Shown piece by piece: positions 50-61,312 of a DNA stretch of 64,000 nt; positions within the stretch are counted from its first letter, which is position 1, and every line of letters begins with the position of its first letter. The stretch spans positions 1-64,000 of the forward strand of contig NZ_QEXV01000006.1 in the NCBI RefSeq assembly GCF_003122085.1, read 5' to 3'. A program made the translations under genes and the position numbers. This DNA is from Marinicauda salina. Its GTDB lineage: Bacteria; Pseudomonadota; Alphaproteobacteria; Caulobacterales; Maricaulaceae. The notes beneath the pieces were generated by a model, which saw only the letters and a list, made by a program, of their open reading frames with translations, did not search any database and was not told the DNA's origin.

Positions 50-187
50 ATGGGCCGCACGATCTTCGCCGCGTTCAGCCTGGCGCTGGGGCTGGCCGCC
101 GCCGCTTGCGGGCAGGCCGAGGAAGGGGGAGCAAAACGTGGCGACGCGCTCGCCGTCGATAAGCCGCCGGCCTCGAGGCCGCCTCGC
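50..187 (+). other. Possible lipoprotein signal peptide, reading frame not closed
   Basis: An ATG at 50 opens a frame that reads like a lipoprotein leader: a short basic start, a hydrophobic stretch (AFSLALGLAAAAC) and a lipobox-like cysteine near residue 20, followed by a small charged segment. The frame does not stop before gatB and runs on antisense through it, so no proper gene end is visible. It may be a small lipoprotein gene whose end was lost by a frameshift near the A-run at 133-136, or chance. A self-complementary 14-mer at 168-181 lies between it and the gatB stop. I cannot name it. Confidence 0.25.
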
Positions 188-190
188 CCC

Positions 191-1708
<1,518 letters not shown>

Positions 1709-1836
1709 GAGGATGCAGTCCCGGTCTCGATTGTCTCGAAGCGCGTTTCTTCGGTCGAACGCGCGGCCGGGTCAAGGCGGGTGACGTCCTGCGGCGGCTG
1801 CGCGGTCGTTCACGTGGCCATGACGCCATCATCGCC

Positions 1837-1903
1837 TGTCATCGCCGGGCTTGTCCCGGCGATCCAGCCTCTTCTGGATGGCCGGAACAAGTCCGGCCAT
1901 GAC
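1837..1903. repeat. Two-part palindromic intergenic repeat
   Basis: Two stem-loops sit back to back. The first is centred on cgccgggcttgtcccggcg (about 1843-1861). The second is centred on ggccggaacaagtccggcc (about 1879-1897). Translated, such repeats read VMAGLVPAIQ, a fragment common in alphaproteobacterial intergenic repeats. A second copy with the two halves in the opposite order is at 31256-31340. It lies in the gap upstream of gatB. Confidence 0.8.
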
Positions 1904-1958
1904 GAATGCGCGCAATGTGAACCCACTTGCCGCAGTCGCGCCGGCTCCCCTCATCTCA

Positions 1959-1983
1959 CTTCTCCCCTCCGGGAGGGGAGAAG
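1959..1983. repeat. Palindromic C/G-block hairpin
   Basis: A perfect-arm hairpin, cttctcccctcc followed by ggaggggagaag. The same arms occur at 31156-31180. In both places the hairpin sits close to the VMAGLVPAIQ-type repeat, so the two repeat types may travel or accumulate together. Confidence 0.7.
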
Positions 1984-2040
1984 GGACGTAAACCTCGCGC
2001 CCTTCTCTCCAATAGAGACGCCAAGCGCCCATCCTTCGAG

Positions 2041-2113
2041 GCCCGATCCCCTCATCCAGAGGTGCGACCCCGGCCTTGAGCCGGGGGAGCCTCGAACGAG
2101 CAGGGGATCGGGC
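2041..2113. repeat. Nested inverted repeat, 73 bp
   Basis: The outer arms gcccgatcccct (2041-2052) and aggggatcgggc (2102-2113) are exact reverse complements. An inner hairpin ccccggccttgagccgggg (2069-2087) lies between them. A further small hairpin (cgcctcag/ctgaggcg, 2113-2129) follows, just downstream of the quinone reductase stop, and could help end its transcript. The remainder of the 450-base gap 1709-2158 shows no coding signal. Confidence 0.7.
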
Positions 2114-2158
2114 GCCTCAGGCTGAGGCGAGCGGCGAGGCGAAGACTCCGTTCGCCCG

Positions 2159-3145
2159 CTACGCGGTCTTCACCACCACCGCGCCGATGCGGTCGCCGGA
2201 CTCGACGAGCTCGTGGGCGCCGACGGCGTGCTCGAGCGGGAACACCGCCGAGACCGGCAGCTTGAGCGCGGCCTCGTTGAGCGCGCTGGTGATGTCGTGG
2301 ACCGCCGCGGCGCGCTGCTCCGGCGTCGCGTTGAGCACGAGGATCGGCTGGATGCGCACATTCTTCTGCATCAGACGGTAGATCGGGACCGTCGGCTCGC
2401 GTTCGGCCTCGGAGCCGTAGACGGCGACGACGCCCTGGTTGCGCATGATCTCGACGGTGGTCGGCAGATTGCCGCCGAACTCGACCTCGACGAGATGGTC
2501 GACGCCGGTTCCCCCGGTCGCGGTCATGACCGCGTCGACGACGTCCTGGCGGCGATAATCAATGGCGAGATCAGCGCCGGCCGCGTAGGCCGCCTCGGCC
2601 TTCTCCGGGCTGGAGATCGTGGCGAGCACCTGGCCGGCGCCGGCCCATTTCGCCAGCTGGATCGCGGCCTGGCCGACCATGCCCGCCCCGCCGGTCACGA
2701 GCACGGTCTCGCCCTCGACGGGTCCGTTGCAGAAGACCGCGCGGTGGGCGGTCATCGCCGGGACGCCGATCGCCGCGCCCTCCTCGAACTCGACATGGTC
2801 GGGCAGCGCGACCGCGTTCTCCGCCGGGACGGCGCAGACTTCCGCGCAGGTTCCCCGCGCCCGGCGCGCCGCCGCGCCGTAGAGCCAGACGCGTTCGCCG
2901 ATGCGGCCCGGCTCGACGCCCTCGCCCACCGAGCGGATCACGCCGGCGCCGTCGGAATGCGGCGTCTGGCGCTTGAAGATCATCGGGCCGCGCTTGCCCG
3001 CGCGCATCTTCACGTCGACGGGATTGACCCCGGAGGCGTGGACGAAGACGGCGACCTCGCCCGGGCCGGGCTCGGGCGGATCGACCTCGCCCAGGGTGAG
3101 CACGTCGGCGGCCGGGCCCTGCTCCTCGTACCAGATCGCCTTCAT
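2159..3145 (-). CDS. NADPH:quinone reductase, zinc-free MDR family
   Basis: The 328-residue protein belongs to the zeta-crystallin/quinone oxidoreductase branch of the medium-chain dehydrogenases. It has an N-terminal GroES-like domain (start MKAIWYEEQGP) and a Rossmann fold with the nucleotide-binding turn VTGGAGMVGQAAIQLAK near residue 145. The catalytic zinc ligands of alcohol dehydrogenases are absent, as expected for quinone reductases. The ATG at 3145 overlaps the stop of the upstream membrane gene as ATGA, so the two are probably translationally coupled. The frame stays open further upstream, but that part encodes only low-complexity residues. The physiological substrate cannot be told. 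Confidence 0.9.
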   Translation of the reverse strand: MKAIWYEEQGPAADVLTLGEVDPPEPGPGEVAVFVHASGVNPVDVKMRAGKRGPMIFKRQTPHSDGAGVIRSVGEGVEPGRIGERVWLYGAAARRARGTCAEVCAVPAENAVALPDHVEFEEGAAIGVPAMTAHRAVFCNGPVEGETVLVTGGAGMVGQAAIQLAKWAGAGQVLATISSPEKAEAAYAAGADLAIDYRRQDVVDAVMTATGGTGVDHLVEVEFGGNLPTTVEIMRNQGVVAVYGSEAEREPTVPIYRLMQKNVRIQPILVLNATPEQRAAAVHDITSALNEAALKLPVSAVFPLEHAVGAHELVESGDRIGAVVVKTA

Positions 3146-55852: not shown

Positions 55853-57025
55853 CTACCGGCTCTCTTCGAACAGCTCGCGGCCGATCAGCCAGCGTCGGAT
55901 CTCGCTGGTGCCCGCGCCGATCTCGTAGAGCTTGGCGTCGCGCAGCAGGCGGCCCGTCGGGTATTCGTTGATATAGCCGTTGCCGCCGAGCACCTGGATG
56001 GCGTCGAGCGCGGTCTGCGTCGCGGCTTCGGCGGCGAACAGGATCGCGCCCGCGGCGTCCTTGCGCGTCGCCTTGCCCGCGTCGCAGGCCTGGGCGACGG
56101 CGTAGACATAGGCCCGGCTCGCATTCATGCGCGTGTACATGTCGGCGAGCTTGCCCTGGATGAGCTGGAACTCGCCGATCGATTTGCCGAACTGCCTGCG
56201 CTCGTGGACATAGGGCATCACCACGTCGAGGCAGGCCTGCATGATGCCGATCGGTCCGGCCGCCAGCACGGCGCGCTCGTAGTCGAGCCCGCTCATCAGC
56301 ACCTTCACGCCGCCGCCGACCTGGCCGAGCACGTTCTCCTCGGGGACCTCGCAGTCCTCGAAGACGAGCTCGCCGGTCTCCGAGCCGCGCATGCCGAGCT
56401 TGTCGAGCTTCTGGGCGATGGAGAAGCCCTTCATGCCCTTCTCGATGATGAAGGCGGTGATGCCCTTCGAGCCGGCCTCGGGATCGGTCTTGGCGTAGAC
56501 CACGACCGTGTCGGCGCTCGGCCCGTTGGTGATCCACATCTTCGAGCCGTTGAGGACGTAACGGTCGCCCTTCTTCTCGGCCTTGAGCTTCATCGAGACG
56601 ACGTCGGAGCCCGCGCCGGTCTCCGACATCGCCAGCGCGCCGATATGCTCGCCGGAGATCAGCTTGGGCAGATACTTCTCGCGCTGGGCGTCGTTTCCGT
56701 TCAGCCGCAGCTGGTTGACGCACAGATTGGAGTGCGCGCCGTAGGACAGGCCGACCGAGGCGCTCGCCCGGGAGATCTCCTCCATGGCGATGCAGTGCTC
56801 GAGATAGCCCAGCCCCGAGCCGCCCAGCTCCTCCTCGACAGTCAGGCCGAGCAGACCGAGCTCGCCGAGCTGCGGCCAGAGATCGGCGGGAAATTCGTCT
56901 TTCTCGTCGATCTCCGCCGCGCGGGGCGCGATCTTGTCGGAGGCGAAGGACTGCACGGTGTCGCGGAGCATCTCCGCGGTGTCGCCGTGCGGGAATTCGA
57001 GGGTCGGGTACTGGTTCGAGATCAT
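55853..57025 (-). CDS. liuA: Isovaleryl-CoA dehydrogenase
   Basis: The 390-residue acyl-CoA dehydrogenase has an all-helical start, the flavin region [21 protein letters not shown] and [18 protein letters not shown], and the catalytic Glu250 in [16 protein letters not shown]. In isovaleryl-CoA dehydrogenases the base sits at this position (helix G), not near the C-terminus as in other acyl-CoA dehydrogenases, which makes the assignment firm. The C-terminal part has [20 protein letters not shown]. It catalyses the first FAD step of leucine breakdown. Confidence 0.96.
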
Positions 57026-57076: not shown

Positions 57077-58702
57077 TCACCGGGCGGACGAACTCCGCCG
57101 GCGGAAGAAGCGCGCGGCGACGAACCAGCCCGAGGCGAGGCTGAGCAGCGCGCCCATGAAGAACGCGACCGGTCCGAAGAACAGGAAGCCCTCGCGCTGA
57201 TAGCGCGCGAAACTCGTCAGCAGATCCCACGCGCCGACGCCGAACAGCACCAGGCCGACGACGAGATTGGCGACGTAGATCCAGTCGCCGCCGCCCTGGC
57301 GCGCCTGGACGGGCTCCTCCTCGGCGGCGAATTCGTCCTCGGCCTCGGCGCCGGCGACATGGCGCGGCGAGACCTCGTCTTCCTCGACCTCCGGCTCCTC
57401 GGGCTCGAACTCGGCGAGCCGGCCGGCGCCGGCGACCTCGCCGGAATAGCCGGCCGCCTCGCGCGGACCGGCCGCGCCGCCGGGCCTCGCAGCGGTACCG
57501 CGCTTGACCGGGGAGTGCTGGGGTTCGGGTCCCGCCGCGGGCCCCGGCCCGGCCTCTTCCTGCGCGTCGACCTCGGGCGCGGCGGGCTCAGGCTCGACCG
57601 CCTCCGGCGCGGGTTCCGGCTCGGGCTCGGGCGCCGGGGCGACTTCAGCGACCGGCGCCTCGACCTCCTCGACGACGGCCGCCGCCGCATCGCTGCTCAC
57701 GCGCGCAACGGCGGGGGTGAGGAAGCTGTAGCCGAGCTGCGCGTCCGGCTCGACGGCGGGCGCCGGTTCCGGAGCCGGTGCGGGCGCCGGCGGCTCGCCG
57801 CTCTCGATCTCGACCTGGGGCTCCGGCGCTTCGGCTTGAGCTTCGGACGAGGCGCGCTGCGCGCCGCTGCTGATCTGGGCGGCCATGCGCGCCATGACTT
57901 CGCGCACCACCGCGCCCTGATCGGCCGGGGCGGTCTCTTCTTCACCGGATGCGGCCGCCGGCTCGGGCGCCCCGGTCGGCTCCGGGGAAACCTCGGGCGC
58001 GGGTTCGGATTCAGGTTCGGGCTCGGGGGGGGCCTCCGCTTCGGGCGCAGGCTCTGGCCGGGGTTCGGGCTCCGCGGGCGCCGGCTGCGCGACGGGTTCG
58101 GTCTCGGCGGCCGACGCCTCCGGTTCCGGAGCTTCCGCTTCGGCTTCCTCGGGCGGCTCCTCGAACTCGATCTCGAGATCGACCAGCGGACCGATGCGCG
58201 GTTCCTCCTGCGCGGACGCTCCGGCGTCCGGGGCGGGACGTTCGTCGGCCTCCAGCCCCTTGAGATAGAGCGCCTTCTCGGCGGCGCGGCGGCGCACGAG
58301 CCGTTCGGAGACGACCAGCCGGCCGTCCTCCTCGGCGCGCACCCAGGTCTCGATCGCAGCGGCGGCCTCGCGATGCTTGCCCGCCCGCGCCAGCCGCGCG
58401 ACGTCGGACACCTTGAATGCGCCCGGGCCGATCGAGGCGGCGAACGACACCAGCGCGTCGCGGGTCGGTTCGGGGAGATCCTCGCCGACGGCCTGCTCGA
58501 CGGCGCGCTCGGCCTGAAGGACATCGTAGATCAGCAAGAGCTCGGCGTTTTCGCGCGACACCGCCACGCCTTCCTTGGCCGAAGCCGTGTGGCCGAAGCC
58601 GACCACCCAGCGCCGGCCACGCCGACGCGCCTCCGGCACGAAGGGCTCGTGGGCCATTATGAGGTCGCGCGCGGCGCGCGTGCTCTTCAGTCGCGGTTTC
58701 AT
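57077..58702 (-). CDS. spmX: SpmX-like polar protein: inactive muramidase domain, acidic Pro-rich linker, two membrane helices
   Basis: The 541-residue protein has a phage-lysozyme (GH24) domain (about 1-155, MKPRLKSTRAARDLIMAHEP ... WVVGFGHTAS), a very long Glu/Pro/Ala-rich disordered region (about 165-455), and two C-terminal transmembrane segments (about 475-495 and 505-530). This is the plan of SpmX, which recruits DivJ to the old pole in Caulobacter. The catalytic Glu is kept (Glu19), but the usual Asp and Thr are replaced by Arg27 (approximate) and Val33. The start ATG 58702 matches the family N-terminus MKPR. Confidence 0.85.
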   Translation of the reverse strand: MKPRLKSTRAARDLIMAHEPFVPEARRRGRRWVVGFGHTASAKEGVAVSRENAELLLIYDVLQAERAVEQAVGEDLPEPTRDALVSFAASIGPGAFKVSDVARLARAGKHREAAAAIETWVRAEEDGRLVVSERLVRRRAAEKALYLKGLEADERPAPDAGASAQEEPRIGPLVDLEIEFEEPPEEAEAEAPEPEASAAETEPVAQPAPAEPEPRPEPAPEAEAPPEPEPESEPAPEVSPEPTGAPEPAAASGEEETAPADQGAVVREVMARMAAQISSGAQRASSEAQAEAPEPQVEIESGEPPAPAPAPEPAPAVEPDAQLGYSFLTPAVARVSSDAAAAVVEEVEAPVAEVAPAPEPEPEPAPEAVEPEPAAPEVDAQEEAGPGPAAGPEPQHSPVKRGTAARPGGAAGPREAAGYSGEVAGAGRLAEFEPEEPEVEEDEVSPRHVAGAEAEDEFAAEEEPVQARQGGGDWIYVANLVVGLVLFGVGAWDLLTSFARYQREGFLFFGPVAFFMGALLSLASGWFVAARFFRRRSSSAR

Positions 58703-58764: not shown

Positions 58765-59787
58765 TCACTCGCCTCCCGTCGAAAATATGTCGACCGAATC
58801 CACCGCGGTGAACGGCGCGAAGAAGCCTGCGCCCGCCCCGCCGCCGATGAGGAACACCTCGCCGTCGAGCGTTGCGGCGGCGGCCTCGGTCCGAGGAACC
58901 GGCAGGCCCGGCGCCTCGGTCCAGCCCGAACCGTCATCGGCCAGCACCAGGTGATCCGACAGCGTCCGGCGCATGTCGGAGCTGCGCCCGCCGAAGACGT
59001 GGATCGCCCCGTCGGCGGCCGCCGCGGCGTGACCGGCCCGCGGCGCCGGCAGGTCCGGTCCGCGCCGCCAGGCGCGCGCCTCCGGGTCGAAGATGTCCAC
59101 GCGCGCTGTCGCGACTCCGTCGGACGCGCCGCCGATCAGCCAGAGCGCGCCGTCGAAGACGAGCGCGCCGGCCCCGCGCCGATTGGTCTCCCGCGGCGCG
59201 GCGATCGCCGACCAGGTCCGCGACTCCAGATCGAACACGAAGACCCCCGGCGCGCCGTCCTCGCCGCCGACCGCGAACAGCCGCCCGTCGGCCGCCAGCA
59301 GGGAGAACGCAGCTTTCGACCCCGGCAGCGGCGGCTCGGCCTCCCACACGTCGGAAGCGGGATCGTAGGACCACATTTCCGCGATCGGCTCGGCGCCGGA
59401 CTCCGCGCTGTAGCCGCCCGCGACCCAGAGCCGGCCGTCGGCGGCGGCCATGCCGAAGCGCTCGAGCCCGACGGGCATGGGCGACAGCGGCCGCCAGCGA
59501 TTGACGTCGGGCTCGTAGGCTTCGAAATCGTCCTGCGGGTCGACGACGCCGGCGCCGCCGGCGGCGAAAATGCGCCCGTCCAGCGTCGCCGCGCTCAGCC
59601 CCGCCCGGGGCATGTCCAGCGCCGGGCCGGTCCGCCACGGTCCGGACATGGTCAGGCCCTCCGAACCGGGCAGCTCGATCGCACCCGTCGTCACGTCTTG
59701 GGTCTGCAGGGCTGCGCCCGGCCCGCCGGCGATCAGCATCGCCGCAAGCACGCCCGCTCCGATCGCAGTCCGCATCATCGACTCCAT
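58765..59787 (-). CDS. Kelch-repeat exported protein
   Basis: A 340-residue protein with a signal peptide (TAIGAGVLAAMLIAGGPGAA) and about six kelch blades. Each has the paired glycines and a downstream Trp or Tyr, e.g. DGRIFAAGGAGVVDPQDD, DGRLWVAGGYSAESG, DGRLFAVGGEDGAP and DGALWLIGGASDGVA. It should fold as a periplasmic beta-propeller for protein or carbohydrate binding. No enzymatic residues are evident. It sits directly upstream of spmX on the same strand, 62 bases apart. Confidence 0.87.
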   Translation of the reverse strand: MESMMRTAIGAGVLAAMLIAGGPGAALQTQDVTTGAIELPGSEGLTMSGPWRTGPALDMPRAGLSAATLDGRIFAAGGAGVVDPQDDFEAYEPDVNRWRPLSPMPVGLERFGMAAADGRLWVAGGYSAESGAEPIAEMWSYDPASDVWEAEPPLPGSKAAFSLLAADGRLFAVGGEDGAPGVFVFDLESRTWSAIAAPRETNRRGAGALVFDGALWLIGGASDGVATARVDIFDPEARAWRRGPDLPAPRAGHAAAAADGAIHVFGGRSSDMRRTLSDHLVLADDGSGWTEAPGLPVPRTEAAAATLDGEVFLIGGGAGAGFFAPFTAVDSVDIFSTGGE

Positions 59788-59812: not shown

Positions 59813-61204
59813 TCACAAAAGCACCATCGCGCCCAGCCCGAGAAACGCGAAAAACCCCACCACGTCCGTCACCGTGGTAACGAAGACCGACGAGGCCACG
59901 GCGGGATCCGCCCCGAAACGCTTGAGCCCCAGCGGCACGAGGATGCCGGCGAGCCCCGCGCAGGCGAGGTTGATCACCATGGCCGCGGCGATCACCCAGG
60001 CCAGCGCCGCGTTCTGGAACCATAACCCGGCCACCAGACCCATAACCACGGCGAAAATCAGGCCGTTCACCGCGCCGGCGGCGAACTCCCGCCAGATCAC
60101 CCGCATGGAATTGGACACCGTCAGGTCGCGCGAGGCGATGGATCGGACCGCGACGGCCAGCGCCTGGGTGCCCGCATTGCCGCCCATCGAGGCGACGATC
60201 GGCATCAGCACGGCGAGCGCGACGAGCTGGGCGATGGCGTCGTCGTAGAGCGCGATCACGCCCGAAGCCAGCACGGCCGTGCCCAGGTTCACCAGCAGCC
60301 ACGGCGCGCGCGACTTCACCGAGGAGAACACGGTGTCGGCGAGGCTGGCGTCGTTGACGCCGGCGAGCGCGTAGAGGTCCTCGGTGTTCTCCTCCTGGAT
60401 GACGTCGACCATGTCGTCGACGGTGAGCATGCCCGACAGCCGGCCGTCCTCGTCGACCACCGGCGCCGAGATCAGGTGGTATTTCTCGAACAGGTAGGCG
60501 GCCTCCTCCTGGTCGATCTCCGGGCGGATGATGACGTGGTTGGGCTCCATCAGCTCGGAGAGCGGAACCTCGCGCTTCGTGCGCATCAGCCGGCTCACCG
60601 GCACCACGCCGATCGGCTTGAAGCTCTCGTCGACGATGAAGATCTCGAAGAAGAGGTAAGGCAGATCCTCGCCCGCCTTGCGCATGTGATCGATCGTATG
60701 GCCGACATTCCAGAAATGCGGCGCGGCGACGAACTCGCGCTGCATCAGGCGGCCCGCCGTGTCCTCCTCGAAGGCGAGCGAGGTCTCGAGCTGAATGCGA
60801 TCGGCTTCGGAGAGCTCGGCGAGCACGGCCTCGCGCTTGGCCTCGTCGAGCTCCTCGACGATCATCGTCATGTCGTCGGAATCGAGGCCCTGGATCGCCT
60901 CGGCGAGATGGCGCGGCTCGAGCACGCCGGCGATGTCGGCGCGGGTCTCCTCGACCAGTTCGGCCAGGACGGGGCCGGTGAGCAGCTCAGGCGCGAGCTC
61001 GACGAGCAGGACCTGCTGCTCCCAGGTCAGCTGCTCGATCGCGTCGGCGGCGTCGGCCGGGTGCAGCTCCTCGAACAGCGCGAGCAGGCCCGCCGTGTCG
61101 CGCGCCAGGAGCGCCTCGACGATATCGGCGATCAGTTGCGCGGGCACGTCGACCGACGGCGCGGCCTCGGCGGTTTCATCGATCGTTTCGACCGGGTCGC
61201 TCAT
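59813..61204 (-). CDS. mgtE: Magnesium transporter MgtE
   Basis: MgtE is a dimeric Mg2+ channel gated by cytosolic Mg2+. The 463-residue protein has the N-domain (superhelix, 1-130), a CBS pair (about 135-260, with PYLFFEIFIVDESFKPIGVV and HLISAPVVDEDGRLSGMLTV), a plug helix and five C-terminal membrane helices with the pore motif SMGGNAGTQALAVAVRSI and the ion-site Asp in VTTVTDVVGFFAFLG. ATG 61204 is taken as the start; a TTG 15 bases upstream is possible. A tRNA gene lies upstream on the same strand. Confidence 0.95.
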   Translation of the reverse strand: MSDPVETIDETAEAAPSVDVPAQLIADIVEALLARDTAGLLALFEELHPADAADAIEQLTWEQQVLLVELAPELLTGPVLAELVEETRADIAGVLEPRHLAEAIQGLDSDDMTMIVEELDEAKREAVLAELSEADRIQLETSLAFEEDTAGRLMQREFVAAPHFWNVGHTIDHMRKAGEDLPYLFFEIFIVDESFKPIGVVPVSRLMRTKREVPLSELMEPNHVIIRPEIDQEEAAYLFEKYHLISAPVVDEDGRLSGMLTVDDMVDVIQEENTEDLYALAGVNDASLADTVFSSVKSRAPWLLVNLGTAVLASGVIALYDDAIAQLVALAVLMPIVASMGGNAGTQALAVAVRSIASRDLTVSNSMRVIWREFAAGAVNGLIFAVVMGLVAGLWFQNAALAWVIAAAMVINLACAGLAGILVPLGLKRFGADPAVASSVFVTTVTDVVGFFAFLGLGAMVLL

Positions 61205-61312
61205 GCAGGCCTCACGCAATGATCAGCGGCGACAGTGCGGCGGACGATAGGGCGAAGCGCAGGCGAAATCGAGCGGCGGGAGCCGCTTGGCGCAACGATT
61301 CGACGGGAATCG

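Follow-up and report, generated by a model that had tools for sequence, protein, structure and literature searches.

An SpmX orthologue in Marinicauda salina with a lineage-specific basic loop and the catalytic residue losses usual in its family

Introduction

SpmX is known as a phage lysin domesticated for cell polarity, and the copy encoded by Marinicauda salina raises the question of what a lysozyme-fold domain is kept for when two of its three catalytic residues have been replaced. Such a domain could be decaying, could still cleave peptidoglycan, or could be preserved for another role. We addressed this question in a window of 64,000 nucleotides (contig NZ_QEXV01000006.1 of assembly GCF_003122085.1, positions 1 to 64,000 of the forward strand), and set the protein found there against SpmX proteins from five families of the same order.

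Results and discussion

Gene and protein architecture

The single-copy spmX orthologue occupies 57077..58702 on the minus strand of the window and encodes 541 amino acids, with an ATG start at 58702 and a stop codon ending at 57077. The original prediction had this reading frame, its coordinates and its start right, and the MKPRLKS-type start is kept in close relatives. Residues 1-150 (58253..58702, minus strand) form a GH24-like, lysozyme-fold domain, which Pfam PF00959 (Phage_lysozyme) matched over residues 29-142 at 7e-21 in a scan of the whole protein and for which an AlphaFold2 model, built from 17 sequences, contained the whole GH24 fold at a mean pLDDT of 92.7. This domain is followed by an acidic Ala/Glu/Pro linker (residues 151-471; 57290..58252, minus strand), recognized by its composition and predicted from that composition to be disordered, and then by two C-terminal membrane segments called from hydropathy (residues 477-495 and 505-523; 57134..57274, minus strand). 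A Pro-rich intermediate region followed by two membrane segments is the architecture of SpmX, and the domain reading first proposed for this protein, a GH24-type lysozyme domain with Glu19 and a long acidic Ala/Glu/Pro linker, was borne out.

Identity as SpmX

Among solved chains, the best match by sequence was the SpmX domain 6h9d (6.7e-27, with the next best at 1.6e-10), and Foldseek likewise ranked 6h9d first for the domain model. VIA-align placed 6h9d third, with a Z of 19.1 after the prophage muramidase 6et6 (20.4) and 9kbs (20.2). The Asticcacaulis excentricus domain in 6h9d shares the fold and 43% identity with that of M. salina. Resemblance to GH24 endolysins (6et6, 9kbs and the P22 and T4 lysozymes) also extends to the fold, with Z about 12-20, but their E-D/C-T triad, absent from the M. 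salina domain, is intact, and they have no such linker or membrane anchor.

This resemblance admits the alternative that the protein is not SpmX at all but an endolysin acquired independently from a prophage or a gene-transfer agent. BgtA, a gene-transfer-agent endolysin, was indeed the second NCBIfam match (60.3 bits), and PHROGs endolysin families matched with a best value of 4.4e-26, but SpmX was a closer match than any endolysin chain or model, the SpmX architecture is present, and the housekeeping neighbours are conserved (below). An SpmX match was moreover found in 289 of 299 genomes, a distribution across the whole order, and a PF00959 search of the M. salina genome (2.89 Mb, 99.97% complete) found this protein and no other, leaving no separate spmX. 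We therefore rejected an endolysin identity, which we regard as next to impossible.

The equivalog model NF051871 (LysLocSpmX) of NCBIfam scored the M. salina protein at 104.8 bits over residues 1-158, below its cut-off of 700. A Caulobacter-type relative (L104) scored 815.7 bits and four other SpmX proteins from other genera or families 108-227 bits, so the model looks calibrated on Caulobacter-type proteins; our claim for the M. salina protein is SpmX orthology and not membership of this narrow model.

Gene neighbourhood

Orthology was further evaluated through the genes that flank spmX, all annotated with Pfam. Close relatives were represented by 16 of 17 loci from Oceanicaulis, Alkalicaulis, Glycocaulis, Marinicauda and Woodsholea (66-84% domain identity); the seventeenth, from Hyphobacterium, gave a partial match only and was left out. 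Downstream of spmX lies an acyl-CoA dehydrogenase gene (55853..57025, minus strand), which was present in 15 of the 16 relatives, the sixteenth locus (L144) stopping at the contig end. Upstream lies a Kelch-repeat protein gene (58765..59787, minus strand) that adjoins spmX in all 16, followed by mgtE (59813..61219, minus strand, with a TTG start according to the ORF tool).

Within about 2.5 kb upstream of spmX, mgtE was found in M. salina and in 13 of 14 loci sampled from the five families (the exception being G127), and the gene order at the Caulobacter-type locus is lipB-mgtE-spmX-dehydrogenase. Because these neighbours are shared across families, the M. salina gene is a positional orthologue of spmX. 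The mgtE neighbourhood is not fixed, however, since among the close relatives the gene lay in the fetched flank of eight; in another seven, lipB and the Kelch gene were both present with no mgtE detected between them, and one locus (L142) was too short to tell. Taken together with the sequence and Foldseek matches to 6h9d, the three-part architecture and the single PF00959 protein of the genome, this conserved position supports the SpmX homologue first proposed and makes the gene an spmX orthologue by position and architecture.

The Kelch-repeat gene itself was seen beside spmX in M. salina's clade and at loci of genera g2, g3, g7 and g9 (genera and families are given by number), and was not detected there at loci of g4 and g12 or at nine loci of the other four families.

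Catalytic residues across the order

We then compared the catalytic positions across 163 SpmX domains, drawn from many more matches: 72 from M. salina's own family (f1), hand-chosen from the 114 family genomes with a match, and 91 from families f2 to f5, of which those of f2-f4 came from the better-scoring matches listed in the search of 299 genomes and those of f5 were the 30 loci returned. Residue places were read from a sequence alignment anchored by the GxGH motif. A catalytically competent GH24 muramidase carries the motif E-8-[D/C]-5-T. In M. salina Glu19 (codon at 58646..58648, minus strand) is present, the Asp place, whether taken as E+9 or counted back from GxGH, holds Arg, and the Thr place holds Val33. 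The spacing from Glu to GxGH is 16, one residue fewer than the 17 of the 140 SpmX domains outside its clade, so that the triad is lacking in both residues and spacing and the residue reading of the original prediction was correct in each particular.

The alignment of SpmX proteins with mapped E-D-T positions, which that prediction had proposed as a check, revealed that double loss is usual among the relatives of M. salina. Glu was kept in all 163 domains, Asp or Cys stood at the Asp place in only 4, Thr or Ser stood at the Thr place in 63, and both the Asp and the Thr equivalents were absent from 97. By family, double loss was found in 67 of 72 domains in f1, 17 of 22 in f2, 5 of 26 in f3 (the family of the Caulobacter-type reference), 7 of 13 in f4 and 1 of 30 in f5. 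The solved SpmX domain 6h9d also reads E-GLRQQASQ-L-PDGRW-M-IGYGH, with Leu and Met replacing Asp and Thr. The proposal that decay in M. salina is more advanced than in known SpmX is thus not supported as a general statement, and holds only by comparison with f3 and f5, where Thr or Ser is kept in 20 of 26 and 29 of 30 domains, respectively. SpmX in M. salina's family usually lacks both Asp and Thr, and this loss is not specific to its lineage.

A single SpmX among the 163 (L074, from G335 of genus g3) has the complete Glu-Asp-Thr triad in catalytic spacing (EPFRGSAERDANGRWTVGYGH), which reflects either chance or regained activity.

A lineage-specific deletion and basic loop

What distinguishes the M. 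salina protein lies in the former catalytic loop, residues 19-39 (58586..58648, minus strand), where Glu19 is followed by R27-R28-G29-R30-R31 and by V33 at the Thr place. This loop is one residue shorter than in SpmX outside the clade. All 23 proteins of genera g1, g5, g6, g13 and g16 carry the deletion, against none of the 140 others, and a single change (SH-aLRT 95) accounts for it on a tree from which the loop columns were left out; that tree came from a quick search of 144 columns and 173 rows without a mixture model and has many unresolved forks. All 23 members of these five Maricaulaceae genera also share R28-G29-[RK]30-R31, position 30 being Arg or Lys throughout, and the mean net charge of the loop is highest in this clade (+3.0 vs 2.2 in f3, 1.9 in f2, 1.2 in f4, 0.8 in other f1 proteins and -0.3 in f5). 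E-P occurs in 21 of the 23, and also in 13 of 49 other f1 proteins. Of these features, the deletion and the basic loop alone are confined to the lineage, whereas the loss of Asp and Thr is widely shared.

Comparison with individual proteins places this difference in context. L104, which stands here for C. crescentus SpmX, resembles the M. salina protein in its GH24-like domain, Glu19, a residue other than Asp at the Asp place (Leu in L104), a Pro-rich acidic linker, C-terminal membrane segments, and the neighbours mgtE, acyl-CoA dehydrogenase and lipB. At 431 amino acids, however, L104 is shorter, keeps Thr and a PDG turn, and has E-G rather than E-P, while the M. salina loop is one residue shorter and basic. 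Similarly, 6h9d differs in its canonical spacing from Glu to GxGH, its PDG turn and its E-G. The 16 close relatives (L138-L153) have the same deletion and basic loop as well as the Kelch and mostly the dehydrogenase neighbours, but differ from M. salina in linker length and sequence, and mgtE is missing beside half of them.

Preservation rather than decay

The residue losses might nevertheless be read as relaxed decay, in which the domain persists as a fossil, carried along only as part of a long protein, while its active-site region drifts, and several observations fit that reading. Asp has been lost nearly everywhere; the tree calls for at least 11 changes of the Thr state, although it does not recover f1 and f4 as single groups or distinguish gains from losses; about 11 residues near the domain end are missing from g3 and g7 proteins; and the loop had a dN/dS of 1.64 in one pair (G252/G178, with a dS of 0.2 over 21 codons). 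Yet the median dN/dS of the domain was 0.21 and that of loop residues 19-39 was 0.22, below the 0.44 of the linker, whose doubtful alignment possibly inflates its dN, and the 0.66 of the membrane part. These Nei-Gojobori estimates come from 184 non-independent pairs among the 23 proteins with a domain dS under 1.2, of which 172 remained for the loop, 180 for the linker and 168 for the membrane part after undefined values were dropped. Examples among the close pairs listed were as low as 0.03 (G078/G039), 0.05 (G168/G133) and 0.06 (G347/G223) for the domain.

In addition, nine residues of the altered loop region (E19, F21, A25, R28, G29, R31, G35, G37 and H38) are invariant in all 23 proteins of the deletion clade, and the model of the domain has the full fold at high pLDDT. 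The low domain dN/dS and these invariant residues contradict the idea of decay, and with the residue census they led us to reject advanced decay, a reading to which we give very little credence. The SpmX domain instead looks actively preserved, and the census distinguishes the features that selection keeps (Glu19, the fold and the GxGH region) from the variable ones, Asp being lost nearly everywhere and Thr having changed state many times. In sum, the M. salina protein is an ordinary SpmX orthologue with a lineage-specific loop, and its residue losses are the usual state of its family.

In the SpmX proteins of L024, L025, L028 and L031 (g7 and g3), some 11 residues towards the end of the lysozyme domain (M. 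salina residues ~121-131) are missing, a further trimming absent from M. salina's clade.

The linker

From residue 151 to the first membrane segment at ~477, as called from hydropathy, the linker counts 326 residues. The long Glu/Pro/Ala tract that had been predicted is therefore real, but its length had been put at about 290 residues, and its description as unusually long is not supported: 67 of 92 complete SpmX proteins have a shorter linker by these rough, hydropathy-based lengths, the longest reaches 623 residues, and we rejected unusual length as a feature. The measured lengths are too short for G111, G240, G319 and G168, where a hydrophobic linker stretch was taken as a membrane segment, and too long for others, for example G292, G297, G034 and G232, where only one of the two membrane segments was called. 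Passages of an earlier study describe Asticcacaulis SpmX linkers as expanded by over 370 residues (PMC4460556).

Residues 151-471 consist of 22% Ala, 22% Glu and 18% Pro, with a net charge of -65, but the linker is not featureless, as three motifs at 173, 269 and 323 are conserved in the deletion clade. LVDLEIEF (residues 173-180; 58163..58186, minus strand) was found in 20 of 23 clade members and in none of 200 shuffles. VMARMA (residues 269-274; 57881..57898, minus strand) was found in 22 of 23 within residues 151-470 and in 23 of 23 in everything past residue 150 (shuffled mean 0.01). LGYSF (residues 323-327; 57722..57736, minus strand), counted over residues 151-470, occurred in 21 of 23 (shuffled mean 0.015). 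Outside the clade, motifs of these three types occurred in 0, 6 and 5, respectively, of 49 f1 proteins and in none of 25 from f2-f5, and are absent from L104; because the patterns were drawn from the sequences counted, these counts measure conservation and are not an independent test.

The Caulobacter linker is described as having a 19-residue proline-free predicted helix that could assist oligomerization (PMC5347347), and by analogy the VMARMA segment may be a short helix that is its counterpart. Separately, the SpmX linker weakly matches the region before the PopZ (DUF2497) domain at G000 C4:276312-276986 (1.6e-4), a match that is probably due to shared composition.

Proposed function and possible residual activity

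The explanation that best fits these observations, and which we consider highly probable, is that this SpmX orthologue acts as a polar adaptor that links PopZ to a DivJ-like kinase with little or no hydrolytic activity of its own. For each partner a candidate was found in M. salina. One PopZ-family protein (DUF2497) is encoded in the genome, and of 20 HisKA matches we scanned one multi-membrane kinase, chosen by its membrane segments (four called) and length, whose best NCBIfam match was DivJ over residues 18-547 at 291 bits, against a cut-off of 1000; judged by sequence, this kinase is a candidate DivJ-like partner.

Beyond the orthology, residue states, selection and predicted fold observed above, partner binding and lack of hydrolysis would be expected for the M. 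salina protein by analogy with Caulobacter. On that model, the domain derived from a phage lysozyme would dock on the polar PopZ matrix and aid SpmX self-assembly, the linker, acidic, disordered and bearing short conserved motifs, would hold and activate the DivJ-like kinase, and the two membrane segments would tether the protein. Glu19 would be retained for the fold, self-assembly or partner binding (or for weak residual activity), and a single deletion in five Maricaulaceae genera has reshaped the hairpin into an invariant basic loop.

Parts of the earlier literature on SpmX are consistent with such a scheme. The SpmX disordered region, about 200 residues long there, is described in excerpts of one study as sequestering DivJ at the pole (PMC8849385), and the muramidase domain in passages of another as necessary for function and interchangeable among species (PMC4460556). 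No experiment on SpmX of M. salina's lineage was found in the literature searched, a search on SpmX and "catalytic glutamate" gave no match, and the portions of text returned for SpmX and Maricaulis held nothing on a Maricaulis protein. In the excerpts of endolysin papers that came up, 6h9d is used only as a template or nearest structure.

A residual enzyme is the main competing reading of the retained Glu: Glu19 alone might still cleave peptidoglycan weakly, and for that reason never vary. That Glu is kept in every domain of the census while Asp and Thr vary, and that the model lies near phage-type muramidases (6et6 and 9kbs), would both be expected of such an enzyme. SpmX is also said, in work by Randich and colleagues from 2019, to retain attenuated muramidase activity, and a complete loss of hydrolysis is thus not established. 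The M. salina domain, however, lacks both Asp and Thr and has a loop one residue shorter.

In Caulobacter, moreover, lysozyme activity of SpmX was reportedly not detected in vitro (PMC5347347), even though Caulobacter-type proteins keep Thr. The same study states that purified E19R bound neither PopZ nor DivJ and formed no higher-order assembly, that E19A was bipolar in 59% of cells vs 18%, and that overexpressed E19R still made some ectopic poles (PMC5347347). As E19R destroys both assembly and binding, conservation of Glu has a non-catalytic explanation, and our observations suggest that Glu has been kept for some role outside the canonical catalysis by three residues. We accordingly regard residual enzymatic activity as unlikely and favour the adaptor.

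Within the adaptor reading, the clade might go one step further. We tentatively propose, as a possibility that we rate below even chances, that its SpmX is a natural separation-of-function allele, in which the deletion produced an invariant basic loop facing Glu19 and made hydrolysis chemically impossible while Glu19 was kept. That the basic loop faces Glu19 is suggested by homology, and Glu19 might take part in a salt bridge and so help to form a new binding surface for an acidic partner, for example the protein's own linker, PopZ or DivJ. If this is true, the clade offers a direct way to find out whether any muramidase activity is required of SpmX; its members are in any case natural alleles for testing the role of the retained Glu.

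SpmX loss and other GH24 proteins in relatives

Fourteen genomes had no clear SpmX match, and a profile search left 13 of them, G296 giving a weak partial match. PopZ was present in 8 of these 13 and, among 10 SpmX-bearing control genomes, in 9. The presence of PopZ thus does not depend on SpmX, and its loss does not, as a rule, follow that of SpmX. In G096, G131, G235 and G255 (g26, f3) and G067 (f4), all 99-100% complete, the profile found no SpmX and PopZ is kept. Neither SpmX nor the PopZ family was found in G267, G309 and G332 (g10) and G351 (g5) of M. salina's family, where, at 1.7-2.0 Mb and 88-97% completeness, the absence may reflect incompleteness.

The PF00959 search of the M. salina genome, which returned SpmX only, yielded no protein with more than one GH24 copy. 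Nine relatives in the family encode proteins with two or three copies (L124 at 163-3021 on the plus strand, L125, L126, L127 at 890-2863 on the plus strand, L128, L129, L130, L131 and L137), in frames of 658-971 amino acids. A caspase-like domain was also matched by the two of these that were scanned, L124 and, slightly below the cut-off, L127. Five of the proteins have two copies; in these, E-8-D-5-T is intact in the first, while the second is degenerate and, as in M. salina, its loop is shorter by one residue. In five genomes the multi-GH24 genes lie ~4-10 kb from spmX.
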